DNA from: a virus
IMG/VR virus record: IMGVR_UViG_3300023084_000150
Span: 1-22,211 of that record
DNA length: 22,211 bases
Reading direction: 5' to 3' (one strand)
In this document: positions 4,028-18,771 of the stretch, in pieces
Layout of the letters: each line of letters opens with the position of its first letter
How positions within the stretch are numbered: position 1 is the stretch's first letter
Made by a program: the position numbers and the translations under genes
The notes under the pieces: model-generated
What the model was told of the DNA's origin: nothing
The model's input: only the letters and a program-made list of their open reading frames with translations
The model's database searches: none

Positions 4028-4068
4028 AGAGTTCATGCACTGTTTCCCCAGTGAAAAAAGACAAAAAT

Positions 4069-4076
4069 CTAAATAA
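4069..4076 (+). promoter_or_regulatory. Late-promoter-like box TCTAAATA before gene 18
   Basis: TCTAAATA lies 36 bp upstream of the gp18 ATG in the only intergenic gap between gp17 and gp18. It is identical to the boxes before genes 15 and 3. gp18 also has a Shine-Dalgarno AGAGG at 4099-4103, 8 bases before its ATG. Function is inferred from the T4 late consensus. Confidence 0.55.
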
Positions 4077-4111: not shown

Positions 4112-6526
4112 ATGGCGTTAAATTTAGTATCACCTGGTGTCAAGGTAAGAGAAGTTGACTTAACTATTGGTAGGATTGACGGTATTAATGATCAGGTCGG
4201 CGCTATCGCTGGTCCTTTCGCACAAGGCCCAGTTGGAGTACCCATCTTAGTTGAAACAGAACAGGACCTCCTCAATACTTTTGGCAAACCTTACTCTGCC
4301 GATTCCCAGTACGAATATTGGCATACTGCATCTTCCTATCTGTCGTATGGCGGTGTTCTTCGCGTAATCAGAACAGATGGAGCAGGATTATCCAACGCAA
4401 ACATTCCAGTTGGTGTTGCTGTTACTGATCTGAAGGTAACTTCTAGCGAAGATTACTTCACCAACCATGCAGAAGCAGGTGGAGATTGGTACTATGCTGC
4501 AAGAAACCCAGGATCCTGGGCCAACGGCGTAAAGGTTTGTGTGGTTGATGGACTTGCTGACCAAAGACTCGGTGTTGGAACCGATGGTCTTGCCGTAGGA
4601 TATGCACTCACCGCAGGATTCTCCACATCGGTCGCAAACTCTGATGGTACTGTTGGAGTACACACAGGATTCATCAAGGGAATCATTACCCAAATCAACG
4701 TAGGTTCTATCGATGTTAAATTGACATCGAGATATAATGGAACCACTGATATGTGGGAATCCATTAACTACGAAGAAGGAAGTTCTACCGCAGCCTTCCA
4801 GGGGTATGATGATAGATTCTTGGTTGGTATTAACACTCTGGGTCTCGATAACTTCGAGAACAGATATAGAATCTATGATAACGCTGGTGCAGAACAACAG
4901 GTAGAAAGATATAGATTTGGTGGTAGTGTCGGTAGTGCATCTTCCATCGTTTCTCTCGACAGCTTCGACAGCAGATATATCACTTTCGGTGATACTCTGA
5001 AGTCTCTCAACGGAACTCTTGAGGCAACTGTTGTTGGTTTCACAACTGATGCATCTCCTGGTGTTATCCTGAGTCAGACTGCTGGTGTTGGTATGGCAAA
5101 TACCACATTCATCGTTAAGTCTGGTATCGGAACTGGTCTGATGCTGACCAACGTCAACACTGCAGTTGACTGGTACAATCAGCAACACCTGGGTCTGACC
5201 AATACCACCGTATATTGGAAGAACATCGCTCCTCGTCCTGGTACTTCCGAGTACACAGCTGAGAGAAGTGGCAATCATGACGAAGTACACGTTGTTGTTG
5301 TTGACGATAACGGAGAGATTTCTGGAACCGCTGGAACAATCCTCGAAAAGTGGACTGGACTTTCTAAGGCTGCAGATGCGAAGATCTCCCCATCTACAAA
5401 TATCTACTACAAGGACTACATTGCAAACTTCTCCAACAATATCTACGTTGGTTCTGCACATGCTGGCATCGGTGTTAGATTCACCTCTCTTGGTGGTTAC
5501 ACCGTAGACAACGCTGGATCCTGGGGCGGAAACGCACAAGGAGTTACCTACAATGCAGTTGGTGCCAAATCTTGGACCCTTCAGTCTGGTAACGATTACG
5601 GTGGTGAAGGTCGTTTCAATGTTGAATTGGGTGATGTTGTTTCTGGTTACTCTGTTCTGGAGAACCCCGCAGAGTACTCGGTCAACTTCCTGATCCAAGG
5701 ACCTTCTGGTGGATCTACAATCTATGAAGCACAAGCCAAGGCACAAAAACTGATGGCGATTGCTTCGACCCGTAAGGATTGTATCGCATGTATCTCTCCA
5801 TACAGAGATGGTGTTGTTAATGTAACCAATTCGGATACACAGACACAGAACGTCATCAACTTCTATGATGCACTGCCCTCTAACTCCTATGCAGTGTTTG
5901 ATTCTGGATACAAGTACATGTATGACAGATTCAACAATACCTTCAGATATATTCCTCTGAATGGTGACATTGCTGGTCTGATGGCAAGAACGTCCATTAA
6001 TTCCTTCCCATGGTTCTCGCCCGCTGGATCTACCAGAGGCGCGATCAACAATGCAATCAAACTTGCATACAACCCATCTCAATCTCAAAGAGATCTTCTC
6101 TATCCTAAGAGAATTAACCCAGTTATGTTCAGCCCTGGTGCAGGCATGATTCTCTTTGGTGATAAGACTGCTCTCAAAGTTGCTTCCGCATTTGACAGAA
6201 TCAATGTTCGCCGTTTGTTCCTCACCATTGAGGCGACAATCGAGAGAGCTGCAAGAGCTCAACTGTTTGAGTTCAATGACGTTCTCACCAGAACCAACTT
6301 CCTGAACATCGTCGAACCATATCTCCGCGATGTTAAGGCAAAGAGAGGTATTAGTGACTTCGTAGTTATCTGCGACGAAACTAACAACACCCCTGATGTC
6401 ATCGATGCTAACCAGTTCAAGGCAGACATCTTTGTCAAGCCCGCAAGATCGATTAACTTCATTGGTCTCACCTTCGTGGCTACAAGAACTGGAGTTAGCT
6501 TTGACGAAGTGATCGGCGCCGCCTGA
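4112..6526 (+). CDS. 18: Contractile tail sheath protein gp18
   Basis: This is the major tail sheath subunit, which polymerises around the gp19 tube and contracts to drive the tube through the host envelope. The N-terminus has the typical sheath signature VSPGVKVREVDLT (residues 6-18). The C-terminal core holds the conserved sheath region, including AFDRINVRRLFLTIE and the long helices after it, and ends in FDEVIGAA. At 804 residues it is longer than T4 gp18 (659). The extra length appears to be in the variable, outward-facing middle (about 100-450), which is rich in glycine, serine and short beta repeats. Beyond about codon 92 it uses no TTA, CTA or TCA codons, a sign of selection for high expression. 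The start is supported by an AGAGG Shine-Dalgarno. Confidence 0.95.
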   Translation: MALNLVSPGVKVREVDLTIGRIDGINDQVGAIAGPFAQGPVGVPILVETEQDLLNTFGKPYSADSQYEYWHTASSYLSYGGVLRVIRTDGAGLSNANIPVGVAVTDLKVTSSEDYFTNHAEAGGDWYYAARNPGSWANGVKVCVVDGLADQRLGVGTDGLAVGYALTAGFSTSVANSDGTVGVHTGFIKGIITQINVGSIDVKLTSRYNGTTDMWESINYEEGSSTAAFQGYDDRFLVGINTLGLDNFENRYRIYDNAGAEQQVERYRFGGSVGSASSIVSLDSFDSRYITFGDTLKSLNGTLEATVVGFTTDASPGVILSQTAGVGMANTTFIVKSGIGTGLMLTNVNTAVDWYNQQHLGLTNTTVYWKNIAPRPGTSEYTAERSGNHDEVHVVVVDDNGEISGTAGTILEKWTGLSKAADAKISPSTNIYYKDYIANFSNNIYVGSAHAGIGVRFTSLGGYTVDNAGSWGGNAQGVTYNAVGAKSWTLQSGNDYGGEGRFNVELGDVVSGYSVLENPAEYSVNFLIQGPSGGSTIYEAQAKAQKLMAIASTRKDCIACISPYRDGVVNVTNSDTQTQNVINFYDALPSNSYAVFDSGYKYMYDRFNNTFRYIPLNGDIAGLMARTSINSFPWFSPAGSTRGAINNAIKLAYNPSQSQRDLLYPKRINPVMFSPGAGMILFGDKTALKVASAFDRINVRRLFLTIEATIERAARAQLFEFNDVLTRTNFLNIVEPYLRDVKAKRGISDFVVICDETNNTPDVIDANQFKADIFVKPARSINFIGLTFVATRTGVSFDEVIGAA

Positions 6527-6569: not shown

Positions 6570-7256
6570 ATGTCAGTCAATCATCCAAAGATCAATCAAA
6601 GGACCATTGAGGATTTCAAATCGAAGCTCATCGGTGGTGCTGCAAGACCAAACCTGTTCGAAGTTGAAATGGCCTTCCCCTCTTTTGTTGAGGGGGGAAG
6701 TGACAATCAACTTCTCGAAAAAACCAGATTCATGATTAAGGCAGCGAACCTGCCTGCATCCAACGTCAATGTTATTGAGGTTCCCTTCAGAGGAAGAAAC
6801 CTCAAGATTGCTGGTGACAGAACATTCGATGTCTGGACCATCACGGTCATCAATGATATCGATTTCGGCATCAGAAATGCATTCGAAAGATGGATGAATG
6901 GAATCAACAAGCATGATAATGCTACTGGTTTCATCAACCCCGCTCAGTATCAGGTAGACGCAAAAGTCTTCCAACTCGGAAGAAACACCGTCAAGAGCAC
7001 AGAAAACGCCTCCCCAAGTGGAGTTCCTATTTCTGGTTCTGAGAATGTACCTGTTCTCAAGGCATATCAGTTCCATGGTATCTTCCCAACTAACGTTGGT
7101 GCAATCGAATTGTCTTACGACAACTCCGATACCATCGAAGAGTTCACCGTTGATCTGCAAGTTCAGTGGTGGGATGCCCTTGACCCACAAGGTAAAACTC
7201 AATTAGGTACTGAAGCACAGACAGCTGAACCAGCAGGAGACTCTCAGCGTTCCTAA
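6570..7256 (+). CDS. 19: Tail tube protein gp19
   Basis: gp19 forms the inner tail tube through which DNA passes. The 228-residue product starts at an ATG with GAGG at 6557-6560, 9 bases upstream. Tube-family landmarks are the ARPNLFEVEM strand (25-34), AANLP (58-62), a GD turn at 82-83, the DVWTITVINDIDF strand (87-99) and a helix ending in ERWMNGI (106-112), then a C-terminal VDLQVQWWD. T4 gp19 is 163 residues; this one is longer, with a low-complexity C-terminal tail after about 205. It directly follows gp18, 43 bp downstream. A weak TTTAAATC at 6534-6541 might be a degenerate late box, but read-through from gp18 is enough to explain expression. Like gp18, it avoids TTA, CTA and TCA codons. 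Confidence 0.93.
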   Translation: MSVNHPKINQRTIEDFKSKLIGGAARPNLFEVEMAFPSFVEGGSDNQLLEKTRFMIKAANLPASNVNVIEVPFRGRNLKIAGDRTFDVWTITVINDIDFGIRNAFERWMNGINKHDNATGFINPAQYQVDAKVFQLGRNTVKSTENASPSGVPISGSENVPVLKAYQFHGIFPTNVGAIELSYDNSDTIEEFTVDLQVQWWDALDPQGKTQLGTEAQTAEPAGDSQRS

Positions 7257-7266
7257 TAAAAAACCT

Positions 7267-7326
7267 TTTAGCCATGAACTCATAAATATATGGGTAACAG
7301 CCCATATTGCTTGATTCATGGCTAAA
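7267..7326 (+). promoter_or_regulatory. Inverted repeat that can sequester the gp20 start codon
   Basis: TTTAGCCATGAA at 7267-7278 is a perfect 12-bp inverted repeat of TTCATGGCTAAA at 7315-7326. The second arm contains the gp20 ATG (7318-7320). Between them lies a second hairpin, ATATGGG at 7288-7294 and CCCATAT at 7301-7307 with loop TAACAG, and the late box CATAAATA (7281-7288). RNA coming from gp19 would contain both arms. RNA starting at the late box, about 6 bases past it, would lack the left arm of both hairpins. This resembles the start-site hairpins described for early transcripts of T4 genes e, soc and 49. The regulatory role is inference; the repeat itself is directly visible. Confidence 0.6.
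7281..7288 (+). promoter_or_regulatory. Late promoter box CATAAATA before gene 20
   Basis: CATAAATA matches the T4 late consensus TATAAATA at 7 of 8 bases and lies 30 bp before the gp20 ATG. It sits inside the loop region of the 7267-7326 inverted repeat. The predicted start of transcription is about 7294-7295. Confidence 0.65.
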
Positions 7327-8988
7327 TTATTTGGTTTCAAAATAGAGGACGAGTCTAAGGATAACTCTAAGGGGATTGTTTCACCCGTACCTAAGACAGA
7401 TGAAGACTCCTCTGACTATTATGTTTCAAGTGGCTTTTACGGTCAGTATGTAGACATCGATGGTGTTTACAAATCAGAAGCTGATTTAATCAAACGTTAT
7501 AGAGAGATGGCGCTGCATCCAGAAGTGGACAGCGCCATTGAAGACATTATAAACGAAGCAATTGTATCGGACCAGAACGATTCTCCAGTTCAGATTGATT
7601 TGGAGAACGTGCCTGCGTCCGATTCTTTAAAGAAATTAATTAGAAAAGAGTTCACTAAAGTCAAGGAACTCTTAGATTTCGACAAAAAGTGTCACGAAAT
7701 TCTTAGAAACTGGTATGTTGATGGTAGAGTCTTTTACCACAAGGTAATTGATATCAATAAGCCAGAAGACGGATTAAAAGAAGTTAGATATATTGATCCC
7801 CTAAAGATCAAGTTTGTAAGAAAACTCAAGCAAGACAACTCCTTAAACTCTGCGATTAGAAGAGCTTCTGGTTTAGCAGAAGCTGTAGATACTCCAGAGA
7901 TCGAAGAGTACTATTTGTATGATCCCCAAGCAACTCAGGCAAAAAACAACCTGGGTGGAATTGGTCAAGCATCATATAAAGATCAACTACAGAAAGTAAA
8001 AATTGCTCCCGACGCTATCACTTTCTGCCACTCTGGTTTAGTTGATAGAAACAAACAAACCATTCTTTCCTATCTTCACAAAGCAATTAAGGCACTCAAT
8101 CAACTTCGTATGATTGAAGACAGTCTTGTTATCTACAGATTGTCTCGTGCTCCAGAAAGAAGAATTTTCTATATTGACGTAGGTAATCTACCAAAAATTA
8201 AGGCAGAACAATATCTGCGTGACGTGATGAATCGTTATCGTAATAAGTTAGTCTATAACGCAGCGACTGGGGAAGTTAAAGATGATCGCAAGCATATGAG
8301 TATGCTTGAAGATTTCTGGCTTCCTCGTCGTGAAGGTGGTCGTGGTACTGAAATCACAACTCTTCCTGGTGGACAGAACTTAGGTGAACTGTCTGACATT
8401 GAGTATTTCCAGAAGAAACTATACAGAGCACTTGGTGTTCCCGAGTCTCGTATTGCTGGATCTGGAGAAGGTTTCAATCTTGGTCGTTCTTCCGAAATTC
8501 TTAGAGACGAAATTAAGTTTACTAAATTCGTCGGCAGAATGAGAAAGAGATTTGCAAATGTCTTCAATGACATGCTCAAAACTCAACTCATTCTGAAGAA
8601 TATCGTTTCTCCAGAAGATTGGGAGATTCTTTCTGATCATATCCAATACGACTTTGTTTATGACAACCATTTCTCCGAACTCAAAGAAACTGAGTTGATG
8701 AATGAGAGATTGGCAGTCGTCGGCGCCGTTGAACCTTATCTTGGAAAATATTTCTCTACTGGTTATGTGAGAAGAAATATTCTCAAGTTCACTGATACTG
8801 AAATTGAGGAGATGGATAAAGAGATCGAAAGAGAGATCGCAGATGGCAAAATCATGGATCCCGTCGTAGCACAACAAGCTGAGATGGGTGCGGCCATGGG
8901 AATGGATATGGGTGAACCAATTAATGAACCCGAGTTAGATGGATCTGCAACAGAGGCTCCAGAGATGCCTCAAGGCGGAGAAATCTAA
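7318..8988 (+). CDS. 20: Portal vertex protein gp20
   Basis: gp20 forms the dodecameric portal at one capsid vertex, initiates head assembly and is the channel for DNA entry. The product is 556 residues (T4: 524). Typical T4-portal features include the N-terminal YREMALHPEVDSAIEDIINEA region (about residues 61-81), an RNWYVDGRVFYHK block (135-147), the YRLSRAPERRIFYIDVGNLP motif (272-291), and the FFQKKLYRAL-like stem (YFQKKLYRALGVPESR) followed by a GFNLGRSSEILRDEIKF block. The C-terminus is methionine- and acid-rich. There is no Shine-Dalgarno. The ATG lies in the right arm of a 12-bp inverted repeat. This gene is widely used as a cyanomyovirus marker. Confidence 0.96.
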   Translation: MAKLFGFKIEDESKDNSKGIVSPVPKTDEDSSDYYVSSGFYGQYVDIDGVYKSEADLIKRYREMALHPEVDSAIEDIINEAIVSDQNDSPVQIDLENVPASDSLKKLIRKEFTKVKELLDFDKKCHEILRNWYVDGRVFYHKVIDINKPEDGLKEVRYIDPLKIKFVRKLKQDNSLNSAIRRASGLAEAVDTPEIEEYYLYDPQATQAKNNLGGIGQASYKDQLQKVKIAPDAITFCHSGLVDRNKQTILSYLHKAIKALNQLRMIEDSLVIYRLSRAPERRIFYIDVGNLPKIKAEQYLRDVMNRYRNKLVYNAATGEVKDDRKHMSMLEDFWLPRREGGRGTEITTLPGGQNLGELSDIEYFQKKLYRALGVPESRIAGSGEGFNLGRSSEILRDEIKFTKFVGRMRKRFANVFNDMLKTQLILKNIVSPEDWEILSDHIQYDFVYDNHFSELKETELMNERLAVVGAVEPYLGKYFSTGYVRRNILKFTDTEIEEMDKEIEREIADGKIMDPVVAQQAEMGAAMGMDMGEPINEPELDGSATEAPEMPQGGEI

Positions 8989-16277: not shown

Positions 16278-16823
16278 ATGGCAATTAGACCAACGACTAG
16301 AAAGAGATCCGAACATTATGTAAATAACAAACAATTTTTGGCTGCGGTCATTGAATTGAGAGATTTTTTTAATGAAGGTAAAAAACTCGGACATGAAAAC
16401 CATCGGGTCTCCATTAAATATTTCAAAGAACACAAAGATCGTATTGTAGCAACAAAATTCCGAAGGTGTTATGAATACCTAGGTGATTGTTTCTCCAAAA
16501 TTGGAAACCATTTGGCATACAAACCAAACTTCGTAAACTACATGTACCGCGAAGACATGGTTTCTGATGGCATTGAAAATTGTATTCAGTATATTTGCAA
16601 CTTCGATCCCGAAAAGTCTAATAATCCTTTTGCCTATTTCACTCAGATTATCCATTACGCTTTCCTCCGTCGTATTCAGAAGGAGAAAAAACAAATGGAA
16701 ATCAGAACTAAGATCATCGAGAGATCTGGATATGATGAAGTCTTCAGTGTAGATGATGACTTTGGAAACTCGGCCGATTACAACTCCATTAAAGACGCAG
16801 TACAATCTAAATTATACCAATGA
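16278..16823 (+). CDS. 55: Late-transcription sigma factor gp55
   Basis: gp55 is the small sigma-70-family factor that directs host RNA polymerase to TATAAATA late promoters. The product is 181 residues (T4: 185). YVNNKQFLAAVIE (14-26) matches T4 YVNNKELLQAIID. The sigma region 2-like core MVSDGIENCIQYICNFDPEKSNNPFAYFTQ (94-123) matches T4 [30 protein letters not shown] and is followed by FLRRIQKEKK. The C-terminus (KDAVQSKLYQ) lacks the SLDFLYE clamp-binding tail of T4. A nearby ATG at 16273 is in another frame and quickly stops. The stop overlaps the halogenase start (ATGA). Its own late boxes appear upstream of structural genes in this window. Confidence 0.93.
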   Translation: MAIRPTTRKRSEHYVNNKQFLAAVIELRDFFNEGKKLGHENHRVSIKYFKEHKDRIVATKFRRCYEYLGDCFSKIGNHLAYKPNFVNYMYREDMVSDGIENCIQYICNFDPEKSNNPFAYFTQIIHYAFLRRIQKEKKQMEIRTKIIERSGYDEVFSVDDDFGNSADYNSIKDAVQSKLYQ

Positions 16824-18127
16824 AAATTGCTATTATCGGTAAAGGGACTAGTGCCCTTGTGGCTTCTATGATTTTCCTCAGACGAGGACATCAGACTGAA
16901 CATTTTTACGATCCAGACCGACCATTTCTTCGAGTGGGGGAATCGACTACTCCACACATCTCGTGTTTGATGCGCGATGTTTTGGGTATGTGTATCGGCA
17001 CCTTTGTCGATGATGGTATTGTATCTTACAAGAATGGCGTACACTTCATTGATTGGGGTGTAGGCGGAGAGTTTACTCACCCATTCAACAGTAATCATAC
17101 TGCTTTCCATTTGGACAACCAGAGATGGAATCAGTATGTTATTGAACTGCTGGAAAAGAAGCGTGGAGTTAAGTTCCACCCAGAAGTTTATAACGGATAT
17201 GAAGTTGCTGAAGGTGAAACTCATATTACAATTAATGGCAAACCATTTGATTTTGTTGTAAATTGTAGTGGTTGGAATGAGGACGATAGTCAGTATGACG
17301 AACCTCTGATGCCTACGGTGAATGCAGCACTGCTTCACCATATTCCAACAATGGATCAGTACCATCATACTGTACACCGTGCAACTCCACATGGTTGGCA
17401 ATTCCAACTTCCATTCCCCGAACTCAACGGCGGCGAAAGTCACTGTGGTTATCTGTATAACGACCAAGAAACTACTGATGAGGAAGCGATTGCTGAACTC
17501 AAAAGAATGTATGGCGAGGATAAAGAGTTTAAACAGATCAAGTGGAAACCTCGTTATGCGAAAAACATGGTTGTCAGTAAGTGGGAGGCTTTGAACGGTA
17601 ACAGGCTGTTCTTCCTCGAACCACTTCAGGCTCTTTCTCTTGATTACTATAAACTTCTTTCTGAAGATATCTGTAATTTTGCTGAGAAGAGAGATTACCC
17701 TGCTTTGGTTACTGCCAATAGAAGGTTCCGTCAGGAAATGTTGGACTATCAGTATGCCTTGTCTCTCCATTATCAGTTTGGTTCAAAGTATGACACTCCT
17801 TTCTGGAATAGAGTTACTAAGATTGCCTCTGATAACTTGAGTAGACATCCAGTTACATGTGATGATGATCTCTTCTTCGATATGATGATGGTAGATACAA
17901 TGACTTCTGATGATCTTACCACCCCTTATCAATGGAAAGAACAAATTCGTCCAGAAGATTATGGGCCTAATAGACCTAATATTGGACACACATTAACGAA
18001 TGAGTGTATTGTTGGTGGATTTAATTACTTTGATACAAAGACTCTCTATTGTGGATTTAAACAAATCAGATTCTTAGAATTTGAAGAAAAGTACGACGGA
18101 CTGCCATGCAACTCTCAAAAGAACTAA
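16820..18127 (+). CDS. Flavin-dependent (tryptophan) halogenase-like protein
   Basis: This 435-residue protein resembles FAD-dependent tryptophan halogenases (PrnA/RebH, Pfam Trp_halogenase), which use FADH2, oxygen and halide to halogenate an aromatic substrate. Matching blocks: nucleotide-binding GKGTSA (7-12), VGESTTP (39-45), SYKNGVHFIDW (69-79) with K71 at the catalytic-lysine position, FVVNCSGW (145-152), HGWQFQLPF (191-199) at the WxWxIP position, and FLEPLQALS (265-273). Departures: WxF-x-LP instead of WxWxIP, and PLQA instead of PLES, which replaces the catalytic Glu and Ser of PrnA. It is about 100 residues shorter than PrnA. Chemistry and substrate are uncertain. It overlaps gp55 by 4 bp and heme oxygenase by 22 bp, so it sits within an operon of replication genes. 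Confidence 0.82.
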   Translation: MKIAIIGKGTSALVASMIFLRRGHQTEHFYDPDRPFLRVGESTTPHISCLMRDVLGMCIGTFVDDGIVSYKNGVHFIDWGVGGEFTHPFNSNHTAFHLDNQRWNQYVIELLEKKRGVKFHPEVYNGYEVAEGETHITINGKPFDFVVNCSGWNEDDSQYDEPLMPTVNAALLHHIPTMDQYHHTVHRATPHGWQFQLPFPELNGGESHCGYLYNDQETTDEEAIAELKRMYGEDKEFKQIKWKPRYAKNMVVSKWEALNGNRLFFLEPLQALSLDYYKLLSEDICNFAEKRDYPALVTANRRFRQEMLDYQYALSLHYQFGSKYDTPFWNRVTKIASDNLSRHPVTCDDDLFFDMMMVDTMTSDDLTTPYQWKEQIRPEDYGPNRPNIGHTLTNECIVGGFNYFDTKTLYCGFKQIRFLEFEEKYDGLPCNSQKN

Positions 18128-18771
18128 AGGAAGGGACTAAAAAGTCTCACTCTGCTGCGGAGAATACCCAATTCGTTGCTGCGTTTCTCCGCGGCATATT
18201 GGATGAAACGCAATATCGAAAACTGATTGCAAACTTCTACTTCATCTATTCTGCGATGGAGACAAGAATTGATCAGTTGCAAGATCATCCAGTTGTAAGT
18301 CAGATTAATCTTTCTGATCTAAAGAGAAAGAGTTCTTTGGAAAGGGATCTTTCTTATTACTATGGTCCCAATTGGAAAGAAAAAGTTTGCCCCTCTTTGG
18401 CGACACAACAATATGTGGATAGAATTTTGACGTGTCCCCCAGAATATCTGGTGGCACATCACTACACTCGTTACCTTGGAGATCTTTCTGGTGGACAAAT
18501 TCTGAAAGGAATTGCCAAAACAGCTTTAAATCCTCCCGAAGGACTTGGACTGGAATTCTATGAGTTCCCCAATATCGATGATGCCAAACTGTATAAGAAG
18601 TGTTATCGTGGTATATTGGATAACCTTCCCATCGATGATTCGATGATTAACGCTCTAGTCGCAGAGGCAAACTATGCCTTTAGATTGAACATGTATATGT
18701 TTGAAGAGTTTGAAGGTTCTGCTGGCAAGTCTTTACTTAACCTTATTATTAATTTCCTAAAACGTAGATGA
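18106..18771 (+). CDS. ho1: Heme oxygenase (biliverdin-forming), HO1 type
   Basis: This enzyme opens heme to biliverdin IX-alpha, CO and iron using ferredoxin, the first step to phycobilins. The 221-residue product has the cyanobacterial HO1 pattern: LKEGTKKSHSAAEN (7-20) with axial ligand His15, YRKLIANFYFIYSAME (37-52), HPVV (61-64), and the distal-helix motif YLGDLSGGQILKG (123-135). It ends soon after the core, slightly shorter than host HO1 (~240). It probably originated from a cyanobacterial host. Cyanophages often pair ho1 with a bilin reductase (pebS or pcyA); none is in this window. It overlaps the halogenase by 22 bp and gp47 by 4 bp, with no Shine-Dalgarno, so translation is likely coupled. 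Confidence 0.95.
   Translation: MQLSKELKEGTKKSHSAAENTQFVAAFLRGILDETQYRKLIANFYFIYSAMETRIDQLQDHPVVSQINLSDLKRKSSLERDLSYYYGPNWKEKVCPSLATQQYVDRILTCPPEYLVAHHYTRYLGDLSGGQILKGIAKTALNPPEGLGLEFYEFPNIDDAKLYKKCYRGILDNLPIDDSMINALVAEANYAFRLNMYMFEEFEGSAGKSLLNLIINFLKRR

Follow-up and report, generated by a model that had tools for sequence, protein, structure and literature searches.

The window analyzed here is a 22.2-kb viral contig (an IMG/VR record) with structural genes in a T4-like order; its closest portal relatives are Synechococcus phages, e.g., Sf-FS3 and S-SSM7 (Kyanoviridae). Genes 18, 19, and 20 are all codirectional. The stop codons of gene 19 lie at 7254 to 7259, an outer inverted repeat begins at 7267, and the gp20 ATG (7318 to 7320) falls within the right arm of that repeat. 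No late box was seen just upstream of gene 19 in the window. The features of the region are as follows.

4068 to 4075, plus strand: TCTAAATA, probable late box of gene 18 and nearest candidate start for a read-through RNA
6570 to 7256, plus strand: gene 19, tail tube; aligns to annotated gp19 tail tube genes
7267 to 7278, plus strand: left arm of the outer 12-bp stem, TTTAGCCATGAA, exact complement of the right arm
7281 to 7288, plus strand: T4-type late promoter box, CATAAATA
7288 to 7294, plus strand: left arm of the inner hairpin, ATATGGG, at about -6 to +1 of the late promoter
7294, plus strand: 5' end predicted for late portal RNA on the geometry of T4 late promoters
7301 to 7307, plus strand: right arm of the inner hairpin, CCCATAT
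7315 to 7326, plus strand: right arm of the outer stem, TTCATGGCTAAA, with the gp20 start codon inside
7318 to 8988, plus strand: gene 20, portal protein, 556 amino acids (Pfam Portal_T4, E 2e-191)

Elsewhere in the window, a tryptophan-halogenase-like gene (16820 to 18127; Pfam E 3e-25) and a heme oxygenase gene (18106 to 18771; E 1e-71) lie between a gp55-like sigma factor gene and gp47.

The original prediction described a perfect 12-bp inverted repeat holding the gp20 ATG in its stem, a second 7-bp hairpin nested inside it, and a late box between the outer arms. Each element is present as described: complementarity is perfect over 12 bp in the outer arms and over 7 bp in the nested arms, and the late box shares one base, its final A, with the start of the nested left arm. 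No other perfect inverted repeat in the window reaches 12 bp with a loop of 60 or less; 12 dinucleotide-shuffled windows contained a mean of 0.08 such repeats. RNA from 7255 to 7345 folds at -30.4 kcal/mol (z -6.2), and 0 of 200 shuffled sequences reached so low a value. A terminator scan identified no terminator-like site at 7267 to 7326, and no Rfam covariance model matched positions 6900 to 7700 at an E value of 1 or better.

The late box of T4 promoters occupies positions -13 to -6 (PMC2988020), which places the predicted start of the late portal transcript at about G7294. An RNA starting there would contain none of the outer left arm and very little of the inner one, so that the box is placed as in the promoter-choice hairpins of T4, with the 5' arm left out of the late transcript. 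A literature search found no mapped late transcript starts for cyanophages. Read-through RNA from gene 19, upstream of gene 20, would bear the hairpin. We computed the cost of opening the start region in both RNAs. Opening the AUG costs 16.3 kcal/mol in the read-through RNA versus 3.6 kcal/mol in the late RNA, and opening the region from -15 to +6 costs 22.7 versus 5.7 kcal/mol, the biggest change among 126 portal leaders. By this computation the AUG is sequestered on the long RNA and free on the short one, as in T4 promoter choice, and the portal protein of this virus may be made only from its own transcript, the hairpin covering the start codon. Among the structured leaders of other viruses, described below, the -15 to +6 region opens at 8.3 kcal/mol in read-through RNA versus 4.2 kcal/mol in late RNA, while the AUG alone hardly differs (3.7 versus 3.4 kcal/mol). 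Masking of the AUG is therefore predicted for the window but not for the family.

The outer, AUG-covering stem has a narrow distribution. Besides the window, a pattern scan returned it in four contigs whose identity to the window is 97.6 to 100%; a fifth hit, in L264, lies inside an unrelated reading frame and was rejected as chance. The 12-bp stem is absent from the six nearest relatives that share TTGATTC followed by ATGGCT at the portal start; gp20 identity is about 92% in those with most of the gene available. In a sister lineage (L279 and L284) the same right arm pairs less strongly, in an 8-bp stem rich in G-U pairs, and the group of L084 and L187 has a stem of its own, of the TCTATC/GATAGA type. 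Since it is missing at about 92% gp20 identity, the most striking feature of the first reading is recent. The outer stem could even be a palindrome without a function of its own that arose recently, by chance or template switching, around a functional inner hairpin. Two observations are in keeping with such an origin: the stem is restricted to one species-level cluster and missing from the nearest relatives, and its left arm reproduces the beginning of gene 20 exactly in inverted form. Yet its arms enclose the late box, its pairing falls exactly over the AUG, and it is identical in all copies, although with copies only 0 to 2.4% diverged this identity says little. We consider this origin unlikely; it would be compatible with a role of the inner hairpin at the end of the tail transcript, discussed below. 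The idea of AUG masking thus holds by computation in the window, but most portal-leader hairpins elsewhere leave the AUG uncovered. Together with the absence of the outer stem from close relatives, this makes it improbable that the element serves in general to mask the AUG and nothing else.

Compensatory changes, which the original prediction had proposed to look for in both arms, were found in the inner hairpin, but not in the outer stem, which the relatives lack. In relatives, ACTGGG directly follows the late box and is succeeded by a loop of 4 to 6 nucleotides and CCCAGT; the window differs from this type by two compensatory differences in the inner stem. The isolate S-SSM7 is among the phages that carry the conserved hairpin. 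A pattern scan across IMG/VR with ATAAATAACTGGGN{3,7}CCCAGT (late box and ACTGGG, 3 to 7 nucleotides, CCCAGT) matched 102 stretches in the whole set, 101 of them directly upstream of a portal start (99 assigned by protein match; 2 end just past the ATG). The lone match away from a portal gene is at 5348 to 5373 of L205. MAFFT put gaps at the wrong places in the loops when the leaders were aligned, so stem pairs were counted on anchored arms, in 34 unique leaders. Pair 5 is C-G in 30, A-T in 3, and T-A in 1; pair 6 is A-T in 28, T-A in 1, and broken in 5. Both pairs lie upstream of the predicted late start and so cannot act in the late RNA; their conservation must act through read-through RNA or DNA. 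T4 late promoters are usually A+T-rich right after the box (PMC2988020), and the GGG found there opposes this habit, which would fit a separate constraint. A TAAATA late box is present in 298 of 298 unique portal leaders, 25 to 30 nucleotides from the ATG (10th to 90th percentile). We conclude that the hairpin is real and that its inner part looks to be under selection.

Conservation through DNA would mean a palindromic protein-binding site or a cruciform at the late promoter. The inner palindrome does span about -6 to +14 of the promoter, and its sequence is well kept within one clade. The variable loop length of 4 to 6 nucleotides, however, fits a hairpin better than a protein site of fixed spacing, and arm sequences are unrelated between lineages. 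G-T mismatches in stems exceed A-C mismatches 4 to 1 (small numbers), and the sense RNA is more structured than the antisense (z -1.09 versus -0.76 across all leaders, paired P = 0.004; within the structured subset the difference is not significant, P = 0.14). A DNA-level element is, in our view, highly improbable.

To place these hairpins in the family, 126 dissimilar portal leaders were folded, with the late box fixed and its flanks shuffled. Structure around the late box was detected at P < 0.05 in 35 of the 126 (about 6 expected; binomial P = 5e-17, ignoring residual kinship) and at P < 0.01 in 13. The set mixes loci fetched by protein homology with some retrieved through patterns that include the hairpin, so it may hold a few extra ACTGGG-type leaders; hairpins are also present at loci fetched by homology alone. 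A smaller set, compiled before two later portal searches, gave 19 structured leaders of 66. The same test on late promoters of gene 18, gene 19, a gene 67-like gene, and gene 22 gave 1 of 83 at P < 0.05, so structure is not common to all late promoters. On the portal tree the structured state changed at least 15 times when well-supported branches only were counted, with no clustering by clade (28 changes versus a shuffled mean of 29), and structured leaders can have unrelated arms, e.g., L024, L038, L324, and Bellamy. The median distance from the end of the stem to the ATG is 15 nucleotides among the 35 structured leaders. Thus, in marine T4-like cyanophages the portal promoter appears often to be built into a hairpin that, on the predicted transcripts, could form only on tail read-through RNA, which fits the known pattern of T4 switches.

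Two further promoter arrangements were observed. In one subclade (L003, L125, L154, and similar leaders), TGTGTTATAAT, which resembles an extended -10 host promoter, lies 15 to 20 nucleotides before the portal late box; the layout looks like overlapping early and late promoters, and a transcript from there would carry the hairpin. At the gene 18 late box of L188 and L255, an upstream GTTTCCCC and a downstream GGGAAA could pair across the box.

Hairpins at the tail/portal junction extend beyond this clade. Eleven gene 19/gene 20 junctions were sampled across T4-like phages, T4 among them, and 6 were structured at P < 0.05; in T4 the hairpin lies between the gene 19 stop and the gene 20 late box. 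Acinetobacter phage fHyAci03, outside the Kyanoviridae, has a 14-bp hairpin, TCCGATTGGTATAA/TTATATCAATCGGA (L460, 179 to 238), that includes the start of the portal late box, and in Klebsiella phage Kiwi the hairpin comes after the late box, an arrangement like that of the window (P = 0.09 for this junction). Ahead of the late box of ACG-2014f (L466, 185 to 292) lies a terminator-like hairpin with seven consecutive T; a terminator-like hairpin with a run of four T is found in Vibrio D491s (L464, 213 to 250), where the spacer contains no late box.

These junctions favor a shared boundary role, in which the hairpin would act at the 3' end of the gene 18-gene 19 RNA, protecting or defining it as a stabilizer, processing site, or weak terminator; overlap with the promoter would then result from the short spacer, and AUG coverage in the window lineage would be incidental. 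Recurrence by position with unrelated sequences, the terminator-like hairpins just described, and the free AUG of most Kyanoviridae leaders all agree with such a role. On the other hand, a T-rich tail (at least 5 T in 8 nucleotides) follows the stem in only 2 of the 35 structured cyanophage leaders, the window hairpin does not score as a terminator, and neither the extra 12.7 kcal/mol of closure over the window AUG nor the frequent overlap of the hairpin with the promoter itself is explained. As an account of the whole element we find the boundary role doubtful, but it is the main rival to promoter choice and may be the older function.

The best single explanation, to which we give a little less than an even chance, is a hairpin on read-through RNA that is removed by the portal gene's own late promoter, with AUG masking in the window lineage. 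The hairpin would be built around that promoter. Read-through RNA from the tail genes 18 and 19 would bear both halves and fold; RNA from the portal promoter, starting at about G7294, would begin inside the structure, lose the left halves, and stay open. Portal synthesis would then be tied to its own late promoter and uncoupled from the abundant tail transcripts. In the window lineage, where the structure covers the AUG too, the hairpin would most likely mask translation in the manner of T4 gene e; where the AUG is free, as it is in most relatives, the hairpin would more likely mark or protect the end of the tail transcript. One point against the switch is that ribosomes terminating on gene 19 might open part of the fold.

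Each head has a dodecameric portal at a single vertex, and assembly should therefore be sensitive to how much portal protein is present relative to the tail and capsid proteins. In a literature search we found no explanation of how T4-like phages hold portal synthesis low amid highly expressed genes. Removal of a hairpin through promoter choice would answer this simply and in a way open to testing, for which the family-wide survey offers many natural variants. We tentatively suggest, as a possibility somewhat below the promoter-choice explanation itself, that the Kyanoviridae, and perhaps T4-like phages generally, carry a fast-changing tail/portal hairpin whose left arm is removed by the portal late promoter; this would be a family-wide device setting portal dosage independently of tail transcripts, overlooked since its structure, not its sequence, is retained.

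Hairpins with embedded promoters of the T4 type are already known; our literature search found no hairpin described for a portal gene. The likeness to T4 genes e, soc, and 49 drawn in the original prediction is well founded, as the window shares the anatomy of the e, soc, 49, and I-TevI hairpins (PMC3014915, PMC2988022). T4 e (lysozyme), soc, gene 49, and I-TevI have inhibitory leader hairpins (PMC3014915) with the late promoter inside the structure; in long transcripts from upstream the start region is folded up, and late transcripts are missing the 5' half, as predicted for the window. These hairpins delay late genes on early or middle read-through RNA, some of them with experimental proof, whereas the predicted window hairpin belongs to a portal gene, and its predicted read-through would probably come from late tail genes. 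Relatives of the window differ further in that their AUG is mostly unmasked. The same promoter and hairpin layout occurs at the homing endonuclease genes segB, mobE, and I-TevII/III and at seg43(25) of Aeromonas phage 25 (PMC2988022), which are mobile, while the gene in the window is a core structural gene. Like the conserved inner hairpin, the stable hairpin of seg43(25) leaves the ribosome site immediately downstream of it unmasked; the effect of the seg43(25) hairpin was left open (PMC2988022). Finally, intercistronic hairpins and terminators are found among T4 structural genes, and a hairpin between genes 19 and 20 is present in T4 and other T4-like phages too, but the T4 hairpin lies upstream of the late box, whereas the window hairpin spans the predicted transcript start.
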